Shown here piece after piece: positions 21,394-24,086 of a DNA stretch of 34,390 nt (position 1 is its first letter; each line of letters starts with the position of its first letter). This DNA is from an uncultured Alphaproteobacteria bacterium (GTDB lineage Bacteria > Pseudomonadota > Alphaproteobacteria > MPNO01 > UBA2964), in contig CALIBP010000175.1 in NCBI GenBank assembly GCA_938048165.1, forward strand, positions 1 through 34,390, given 5' to 3'. The notes below the pieces were generated by a model that saw only the letters and a list, made by a program, of their open reading frames with translations, was not told the origin of the DNA and did not search any database. Made by a program: the position numbers and the translations under genes.

Positions 21394-22626
21394 ATGAAAC
21401 CTGCCGCCTCTATCGATCTACATAGCTGGATGGCTCAGGCGCAGACCCAGGTGGTTATGAAAGCTTTAATGGCTGGGGGACAACCTGCCCGGTTCGTTGG
21501 TGGTTGCGTCCGTGACGCTTTGCTTGGTCTTCCTGTCAAAGATATTGATATCGCTACGCCGGAGAGACCTGAGCAGGTAATAGAGCTTATCGAAAAGGCA
21601 GGCTTGAGGGCGATTCCAACCGGTATTGATCATGGAACCGTCACGGCGATCTGCGATGGAATTCCGTTTGAAATAACAACGCTGCGGCGCGATGTGGAAA
21701 CAGATGGACGACACGCGCGCGTGATCTATACCGCCGACTGGCAAGAGGACGCCGCTCGTCGGGATTTAACGGTGAACGCCCTTTACTGTGACCCAGATGG
21801 CACGGTGTTTGACCCAGTGGGTGGACTGGCTGATCTCAATGAAGGACGTATTCGATTTGTCGGTAATGCACGCGCGCGGATCGAAGAAGATGTCTTAAGA
21901 TTACTGCGGTTCTTTCGGTTCTATGCCCATTACGGTATCGGGGCGGCTGATCGGGAGGCCATATTGGCTTGCCGAGAGATGGCACCGCAAATCGCTACTT
22001 TGTCTGTGGAGCGGGTATGGAAAGAATTGTCACGTTTGCTTCTGGCCCCGGATCCCGGCCCGTCTTTTGATCTCATGGTGACGAATGATGTTCTTTCCCA
22101 TCTCCTTCCGGAGGTTGTTCGCAGTGATCGTTTATCCAATTTGATAAAGGCGGAAGTTACCGCTGAGGTTGACCCTGACTATTTGAGACGTCTTGCCTCA
22201 ATCGTGGATCTTGATGAGGGGGGCGCCCGCGCTCTCGCCGCACGGCTGAAATTTTCAAACGTTGATCGTGATCAGTTTTTTCGCCTTTGCGACCCCGAGA
22301 TTCGACCTGACCCTGGATTTGATTTGAAACAAAACCGGGTGGCGCTGTATCGGCTCGGGCCGGCGCTATTTGATGAACTTATCCTGATTGGGGCGGCTCG
22401 GACCCCTGACCAGGATTGGTTGAGTTTGAGGCCGCTTTCCCAAACGAAACCGGTGCCGCCCTTCTCAATTAAAGGGCAGGATGTTGTAGATCTGGGTGTG
22501 CCCTTTGGAAATGAAATAGGCGAATTACTGGGGCAGGTTGAAGATTGGTGGGTCGCTGGTGACTTTGAAGCGGATCGTAACTCTTGCCTCAGCTATTTGC
22601 AGTCACTTGTCACCGAGCGGTCTTAA
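21394..22626 (+). CDS. cca: CCA tRNA nucleotidyltransferase (class II)
   Basis: A 410-residue enzyme that builds or repairs the 3' CCA end of tRNA. RFVGGCVRD at 33-41 and the catalytic Asp50-x-Asp52 in VKDIDIATP mark the nucleotidyltransferase head. ARRDLTVNAL at 121-130 and EEDVLRLLRFFRF form the neck that selects the nucleotides. The rest is the helical body and tail. No HD phosphohydrolase domain is seen. It is the last gene of the DUF1285 operon. Its final 17 bases overlap the end of a convergent minus-strand gene. Confidence 0.95.
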   Translation: MKPAASIDLHSWMAQAQTQVVMKALMAGGQPARFVGGCVRDALLGLPVKDIDIATPERPEQVIELIEKAGLRAIPTGIDHGTVTAICDGIPFEITTLRRDVETDGRHARVIYTADWQEDAARRDLTVNALYCDPDGTVFDPVGGLADLNEGRIRFVGNARARIEEDVLRLLRFFRFYAHYGIGAADREAILACREMAPQIATLSVERVWKELSRLLLAPDPGPSFDLMVTNDVLSHLLPEVVRSDRLSNLIKAEVTAEVDPDYLRRLASIVDLDEGGARALAARLKFSNVDRDQFFRLCDPEIRPDPGFDLKQNRVALYRLGPALFDELILIGAARTPDQDWLSLRPLSQTKPVPPFSIKGQDVVDLGVPFGNEIGELLGQVEDWWVAGDFEADRNSCLSYLQSLVTERS

Positions 22627-23155
22627 CCAACCTTCCCGTGACGGTTCGGACTCTTTCGCCGCTACGCGTACTTTTGAAAACGATTTTCATGCCAGTGCCT
22701 GAAAGCGTACGGTCATATTGTTGTATGGCGTATGTGCCCTCTTTGTTCACACGAATTAAAAAGAGTGAGAGCGTGGAGCCGGTGATGTTGGCCCAACATA
22801 GCTCCTGGCCCTTCAGAGGATCGCCGCTCGACTTGCAATGAAATGTTCTGGGATTGTCTGTAGGACGCAGCGTTTTGGAACTTTGACGTCTACGGATGTT
22901 CGGCTTGCTAGGATCGCCGCCTTTGCGAATGACACTGATCCAGTCGATTTTGAAACCGTTACCGGCGGGCGCAATTTTGACATCGAAATCGCGCGCGGTT
23001 GTTGCAAAATAGATGCTATCCGCATTTTCTGAAACGCCGCCGCCGTTGAAGGTGCCAAAAAAGGCGTCAATCGTAAGATTAGGTTGTGCAGCCTGTGCCG
23101 CGCTCGAGATTGCTGTAAAAAGTAATGTCGCTGTGAGTACCGCGAAGCGTCTTAT
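22610..23155 (-). CDS. Exported protein of unknown function, apparently starting at ATA
   Basis: Reading minus from 23155 gives 181 codons without a stop. The product begins (M/I)RRFAVLTATLLFTAISSAAQA, a textbook signal peptide with an arginine pair and an AQA cleavage site. It is followed by a mature domain with LTIDAFFGTFNGGGVSEN, the FATTARDFDVKI strand, WISVIRKGGDP, FHCKSSGDPLKGQELCW (two cysteines) and YAIQQYDRTLSG. The frame is open back into hemF, but it has no ATG, GTG or TTG before the mature domain. ATA sits exactly where the methionine should be, 4 bases after GGAGGGG. I do not recognise the family. It follows trmL-hemF on the same strand, so it is probably the operon's third gene. 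An ATG-to-ATA change or a sequencing error are alternatives to true ATA initiation. Confidence 0.7.
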   Translation of the reverse strand: MRRFAVLTATLLFTAISSAAQAAQPNLTIDAFFGTFNGGGVSENADSIYFATTARDFDVKIAPAGNGFKIDWISVIRKGGDPSKPNIRRRQSSKTLRPTDNPRTFHCKSSGDPLKGQELCWANITGSTLSLFLIRVNKEGTYAIQQYDRTLSGTGMKIVFKSTRSGERVRTVTGRLVKTAR

Positions 23156-23157
23156 AA

Positions 23158-23164
23158 CCCCTCC
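23158..23164 (-). promoter_or_regulatory. Strong ribosome binding site before the ATA-start gene
   Basis: GGAGGGG on the minus strand, followed by TT and then ATA. It is one of the strongest Shine-Dalgarno matches in the window and decides the start of the exported-protein gene. Its first two bases abut the hairpin at 23163-23181. Confidence 0.65.
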
Positions 23165-23198
23165 AGAATTTAGTTTTCTGGTCGCTACTATAGCGACC
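23163..23198 (-). promoter_or_regulatory. Two overlapping inverted repeats in the leader of the exported-protein gene
   Basis: GGTCGCTA / TAGCGACC (23180-23187 with 23191-23198) is a perfect eight-pair stem with a three-base loop. CCAGAA / TTCTGG (23163-23168 with 23176-23181) is a six-pair stem with a seven-base loop. They share bases 23180-23181, so both cannot form fully at once, and the second includes the first bases of the ribosome binding site. Confidence 0.5.
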
Positions 23199-23219
23199 CA
23201 ATAACAGATAGCCAGCCTG

Positions 23220-24086
23220 TCACGGCCATTTAGCGACAGGAGGCATAGACATCAAAATTGCTTCGACATTGCCTCCGGTTTTAAGTCCAAATTTTGTGCC
23301 GCGGTCATGCAGGAGATTAAATTCCACGTAGCGTCCGCGTTTTACCAGCTGCTGTTCTCGCTGGTCTGCTGTCCAGTCTTGATCTTTGCGGGTCCTTACA
23401 ATCGAAGGATAGGTTTCTAGGAATGTACGCCCGACGTTTTGAGTGAAGGCAAAGTCTGCTTCCCAATCTCCTGAATCAACATAATCGTAAAAGATTCCGC
23501 CGATGCCGCGAGGTTCCTCACGATGCGGAAGATAAAAATACTCATCACACCATTTTTTGAATTTTTCATAATAGGCACCATCATGGGCGTCACATACTTC
23601 CTTTAGCGCTGTATGGAATTCACTGGCGGCGGCTTCGTCGGCGAGCATCGGTGTTAAATCCGTTCCGCCGCCAAACCATGATTTTGAGGTCGAAATAAAA
23701 CGCGTGTTCATATGAACGGCGGGAACCAGTGGCGAACTCATATGGGCGACTAAAGAAATGCCGGCCGCCCAAAACTCGGGGTTCTCCTCTGCGCCGGGAA
23801 TTTCTTTGCGAAACTCTGGGGAGAATTCGCCATGGACCGCTGAAATATTGACCCCGACTTTTTCAAATACGCGTCCGTGCATGACTGACATCGTCCCGCC
23901 ACCACCATCTGCGCCGGTATGATCCTGCCGATCCCATGTTTTGCGCTGGAACTTTCCGGGCGGTGCTTCTGAGTTTCCGGCCCCGCCCTCTTGTTCTATG
24001 GCCTCAAACTCCGCACAGATTAGGTCTCGAAGTTCGGCAAACCATTCGGTCGCGACAGCCTTTTTTTCGTCGAGTGTCCGGGTCAT
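23220..24086 (-). CDS. hemF: Oxygen-dependent coproporphyrinogen III oxidase
   Basis: A 288-residue enzyme that converts coproporphyrinogen III to protoporphyrinogen IX with O2 in haem synthesis. Family landmarks are [29 protein letters not shown] (His125), the [11 protein letters not shown] stretch, [24 protein letters not shown] and [18 protein letters not shown]. Length is normal. Its start overlaps the trmL stop by four bases. It indicates aerobic growth and fits its place beside the cytochrome bc1 genes, which need haem. Confidence 0.96.

Follow-up and report, generated by a model that had tools for sequence, protein, structure and literature searches.

Does an ATA at the place where a start codon is expected mark a gene that is still translated, or one that has just been lost? 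The question is raised by a frame in the window (the whole 34,390-nucleotide stretch of DNA analysed here), in which the following features surround the ATA. G000 denotes the genome of the window, and the other G numbers the genomes compared with it.

22610–23155, minus strand: secreted-protein frame (hereafter, the barrel gene); an intact 181 codons plus TGA, with ATA first, a Sec-type signal peptide and then a predicted beta-barrel domain
23153–23155, minus strand: ATA start codon, aligned with the ATG of G002, G003 and G007; likewise ATA in G001
23160–23164, minus strand: Shine-Dalgarno sequence GGAGG, 4 bases 5' of the ATA; also present in G001, G002, G003 and G007
23087–23155, minus strand: signal peptide region, with an RR n-region, a charge-free hydrophobic core and AQA-A (cut site placed by eye)
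23220–24086, minus strand: hemF (coproporphyrinogen III oxidase), the upstream neighbour, a linkage that recurs across the class
21394–22626, plus strand: convergent gene on the downstream side, which overlaps the 3' end of the frame; judged by sequence features, probably a CCA-adding enzyme/poly(A) polymerase-like gene
23183–23216, minus strand: CTGGCY-N17-TATAGT block, conserved in all six genus members, in the stretch that separates the hemF stop from the Shine-Dalgarno sequence

The first-pass annotation, made from the sequence alone, described a 181-codon minus-strand frame with a signal peptide and a mature domain, directly downstream of hemF. Both points hold: translation of the frame (IRRFAVLTATLLFTAISSAAQAAQPN...) is stop-free through all 181 codons before the TGA, the signal peptide is recognizable by eye, and hemF is the adjacent gene on the same strand. 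The claim that there is no well-placed ATG, GTG or TTG also stands. None of the three is found among the open frame's first 60 codons, and the window's list of open reading frames contains none of at least 80 amino acids started by ATG, GTG or TTG in this frame. Two details need amending. Firstly, the ATA was placed 4 bases after GGAGGGG; the distance is correct for GGAGG, but only 2 bases separate the ATA from GGAGGGG. Secondly, CTG was said to be the only rare start codon upstream. CTG is indeed found there, but so are ATC and a further ATA. Folding of the leader RNA gave nothing decisive. When aligned start codons were compared among the window's genes, the barrel gene was the sole clearly orthologous gene with a non-canonical one; the other non-canonical starts in this comparison belonged to frames antisense to real genes or to unreliable N-terminal alignments.

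The codons upstream of the ATA could, in principle, provide a different start: the open frame opens 32 codons 5' of the ATA, after a TGA, within the end of hemF and in a different reading frame, and its CTG, ATC and ATA codons are all in frame with the barrel gene. A canonical codon far downstream could also serve. We regard the use of any of these starts as quite improbable. No upstream candidate sits at the start position of the family, the in-frame stretch 5' of the ATA shows no protein-level conservation (it contains a TGA in G001 and G007), and a canonical start downstream would yield a product without the signal peptide and with little of the barrel.

Between hemF and the Shine-Dalgarno sequence, the conserved CTGGCY-N17-TATAGT block is possibly the barrel gene's own promoter; a generic sigma-70 scan did not call the block as a promoter. 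In G000, the TATAGT lies within a perfect 8-bp hairpin (GGTCGCTA-TAG-TAGCGACC). On the other side of the locus, a single alignment piece covers just 47% of the convergent cca-like gene in G004 (contig C2, near 187500–189000), suggestive of a frameshift or of an indel in the assembly.

A search with the translated product, proposed in the first-pass annotation, recovered orthologues from whole genomes of the same genus and order and from elsewhere in the class; single-sequence searching found them in 14 of 61 genomes, at 37–81% identity to the window protein. With a profile, the family turned up in 74 of the 385 alphaproteobacterial genomes sampled. The window protein, itself a row of the profile, matches it over positions 1–179 of 179 (E 1.9e-85). 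The breadth of the family, together with same-genus orthologues that carry an ATG after GGAGG at the identical position, argues that the ATA frame is not a chance open frame. Full-length profile match, position downstream of hemF and signal peptide are all present in the window protein; the usual ATG start is not, an ATG start with a signal peptide being a usual rather than a strictly defining trait of the family. At the 28 positions that are invariant among the other 11 aligned members, the window protein deviates at M1I and L158I only. Leaving the start codon aside, G000 keeps 26 of 27 invariant residues, and G001 has lost five. A scan of genome contigs added three distant relatives only, and no further close relatives sharing the ATA start.

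At most family loci examined, hemF lies just upstream, and several loci hold tandem copies. Tandem barrel paralogues, mostly behind hemF, occur in many Alphaproteobacteria (loci L071–L073, L076, L077, L080, L081, L086, L087, L089 and L091). Family copies that are frameshifted or contain an internal stop are also found outside the genus (L104 in G015, L093 in G279). A Pfam scan of the window protein returned no family even at E 10, and an NCBIfam scan returned only a meaningless weak match at the signal peptide region. As far as these libraries show, this class-wide, hemF-linked family lies outside Pfam and NCBIfam and is unstudied.

An AlphaFold2 model built from a 12-sequence alignment (mean pLDDT 83) predicts a ten-strand beta barrel. 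Its best matches among solved structures (Foldseek, E 6e-5 to 1e-3) are BFA1 (5yvf) and nitrobindin, with TM scores of 0.4–0.57, followed by lipocalins with lower scores. The likeness to BFA1 and to the calycin-type barrels of nitrobindin and lipocalins is one of modelled fold: sequence identity is 12–15%, there is no profile match, and a PDB sequence search found no sequence relative with a solved structure. The natural reading of the model is that of a small exported, binding-protein-like barrel. A nitrobindin-type heme-binding role, suggested by the fold and the hemF linkage, was considered and dropped because, unlike nitrobindin, the family has no invariant histidine able to bind heme.

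Comparison of the start codon in close relatives, another check proposed in the first-pass annotation, shows ATG in G002, G003 and G007, behind an equally spaced GGAGG, and ATA at the same base in G001. Elsewhere in the family, an ATG lies close to the expected position in nearly every copy examined; in a few copies a nearby GTG or TTG is the nearest candidate start, and one copy is frameshifted. The G001 sequence bears directly on the earlier suggestion that base 23153 is a sequencing or assembly error. The window does come from a draft metagenome-assembled genome (68% complete, 307 contigs), but G001 is a separate assembly of another species, and the same substitution error is improbable twice. 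We therefore consider an error very unlikely indeed. Recent exchange of the gene between G000 and G001 was also considered and is unsupported, since the two copies (~79–80% identical) diverge throughout the gene, start region included (19–27 of 30 identical bases per block).

Many copies of the gene within the genus are broken, and each in its own way. The G001 copy contains two in-frame stops (TAG at codon 117 and TAA at codon 146), both at codons that encode Gln in relatives. In G004, a deletion has removed the Shine-Dalgarno sequence, the start and the signal peptide. The G002 copy keeps its ATG, and its frame is broken by the loss of 8 bases and a tandem duplication of 19. In G005 and G008 no recognizable trace of the gene remains between hemF and the next gene; G006, which has no hemF match, was left out of this tally. 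An intact frame with an ATG is found in the genus in G003 and G007 only. The genus is losing the barrel gene, which is clearly dispensable there.

Has the window's copy, too, been lost? The annotation had read its intact length as a sign of selection until recently. We fitted a purpose-written codon model with branch-specific dN/dS to six orthologues only, on the tree (G000,(G004,G001)), which is supported at 95% by hemF and recovered with most flanking genes (single-gene trees). The G000 branch has a dN/dS of 0.071, against 0.066 for the background (0.05–0.07 across fits); hemF, for comparison, gives 0.04 on the same branch. A dN/dS of 1 on the G000 branch is rejected (2dlnL 17.2, p 3e-5), as it is under other class settings (2dlnL 13.2 and 12.6; on the supported topology, p ranges from 3e-5 to 4e-4) and on the alternative topology (2dlnL 38.8). 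With four taxa, it is not significantly rejected (2dlnL 2.23). Selection until recently is thus borne out in all six-taxon fits, though not with four. The G000–G004 pair shows the same constraint (dN 0.040, dS 1.09). The G004 branch has a dN/dS of 0.03, so the G004 deletion must be young. By contrast, the G001 branch (0.43–0.52) differs from the background and not from 1. G001, with its two stops, thus bears the marks of a pseudogene, while G000 has neither stops nor frameshifts and a background-like dN/dS.

These results limit how long the window's copy can have been dead. The 95% likelihood interval for dN/dS on the G000 branch is about 0.035–0.155; by our arithmetic, the neutral part of the branch is therefore about a tenth at most. 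The probability of remaining free of stops would be ~0.007 if the whole branch had been neutral, and ~0.5 for a tenth of it. Coding constraint is shown for the G000 branch, and the ATA may be dated in either of two ways. Should the ATA predate the split between G000 and (G001, G004), the window's gene was constrained while AUA-started, and must be translated from AUA. With two independent origins of the ATA, the window's copy may be dead, its loss falling in about the final tenth of the branch. A naive neutral reconstruction gives A at the start base in the common ancestor a probability of 0.87, and G ~0.12. The value of 0.87 overstates the case for a shared ATA, because neutrality does not hold for this base in a working gene, and in G001's dead copy the base is free.

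Setting out from what is seen directly (the frame, its ATA, the ATA in two species, the constraint and the breakage in relatives), the simplest reading is common descent of the ATA, which we infer, as we do initiation at AUA. We propose that (i) ATA took the place of the ATG start in the common ancestor of G000, G001 and probably G004, (ii) GGAGG would position the ribosome at the AUA, (iii) the initiator tRNA would pair with AUA through a third-base mismatch, (iv) the product would be low in amount and yet sufficient in the window's species, and (v) the weakly expressed gene may then have been lost in the sister lineages, by stop codons in G001 and by deletion in G004. We give about an even chance to the whole of this account: a real gene whose ATG became ATA in an ancestor shared with G001 (and probably G004), and which is likely still translated from AUA in the window's species. 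The ATA does lie at the orthologous start position, behind a Shine-Dalgarno sequence and with no alternative canonical start. No sign of compensation by a changed Shine-Dalgarno sequence was seen; the relatives with ATG carry GGAGG too.

Somewhat less probable, in our judgement, is that a recent ATG-to-ATA change silenced the window's copy, the ATA of G001 having arisen separately by drift in an already dead copy. Loss is frequent in the genus (the breaks in G001, G002 and G004, the absence from G005 and G008), nearly all examined family members across the class otherwise have ATG, and loss of the start in the last tenth of the branch or less would leave dN/dS unmarked. Moreover, G001 is a pseudogene whose start base is free to drift, and the start of G004 is deleted, both of which weaken the case for a shared ATA. 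However, the identical G-to-A change would be required twice, with the naive reconstruction giving an ancestral G only the low probability above, and the inactivation must have been very recent and have struck precisely the start codon, leaving the rest of the gene unharmed. As in a recent pseudogene made by start-codon loss, the start codon is the sole lesion and the genus orthologues are broken in different ways; the difference lies in the same lesion in two species and in the continuing constraint on the G000 branch. The high rate of loss in the genus thus raises the prior for a recent loss, and pulls against a working AUA start, while the coincidence of an identical lesion lowers it. The ATA common to G001, together with the strong constraint on the G000 branch and in the G000–G004 pair, tilts the balance slightly toward a working AUA start. 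The weights given to these two readings are judgements, not computed posteriors.

Non-canonical starts are otherwise familiar from infC, in which AUU, AUC or AUA is an ancient, regulatory start, autoregulated by IF3. In the genomes studied here, infC starts with ATC in G000, G002, G003, G004, G005 and G007, behind a GGAG-type Shine-Dalgarno sequence and with no canonical in-frame codon upstream. In G009, of the sister genus, it starts with ATA, again behind a GGAG-type sequence and without an upstream in-frame ATG, GTG or TTG (loci L063 on G000:C180, L060 in G009, L061, L062 and L064–L066). Therefore, judged from sequence, the group's translation machinery must use such codons at least once. 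G008 has two different infC genes (L059 and L068) and 8% contamination; one of the two is probably foreign. The barrel gene shares with infC a non-canonical start in the same genomes, and differs in that its ATA is young and the family norm is ATG.

A further parallel comes from Staphylococcus aureus: AUA is the initiation codon of infC, ccpN and citZ, each preceded by a strong or extended Shine-Dalgarno sequence (PMC13009471). In reporters, such non-canonical sites reached ~10% of the yield of AUG in poor medium; in rich medium, the figure was as high as 30% for ccpN (PMC13009471). The barrel gene resembles these genes in having ATA in the position of ATG with a GGAGG-type sequence close before it, and it resembles citZ, which has AUA only in a single strain lineage (PMC13009471), in having an ATA confined to a clade. 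The S. aureus cases were demonstrated by ribosome profiling and reporters, whereas translation of the barrel gene is deduced from sequence; and its Shine-Dalgarno sequence is an ordinary GGAGG, not demonstrably extended.

The ATA-start barrel gene is plausibly a fresh example of initiation at AUA, a rare but already known kind of start. Genes of this sort are missed, or reported as absent, by gene finders that demand ATG, GTG or TTG. It is a little short of an even bet that purifying selection has maintained a non-essential gene for an exported protein, with an inherited AUA start, ever since the two species separated. If so, genes other than infC and regulators can have AUA as a stable natural start, and a weak start would have preceded gene loss in the sister lineages. 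If AUA is used, the locus offers a dated natural case of AUA initiation that can be set beside its ATG relatives; otherwise, the gene has been caught just as its loss begins, in a genus where it is lost repeatedly.
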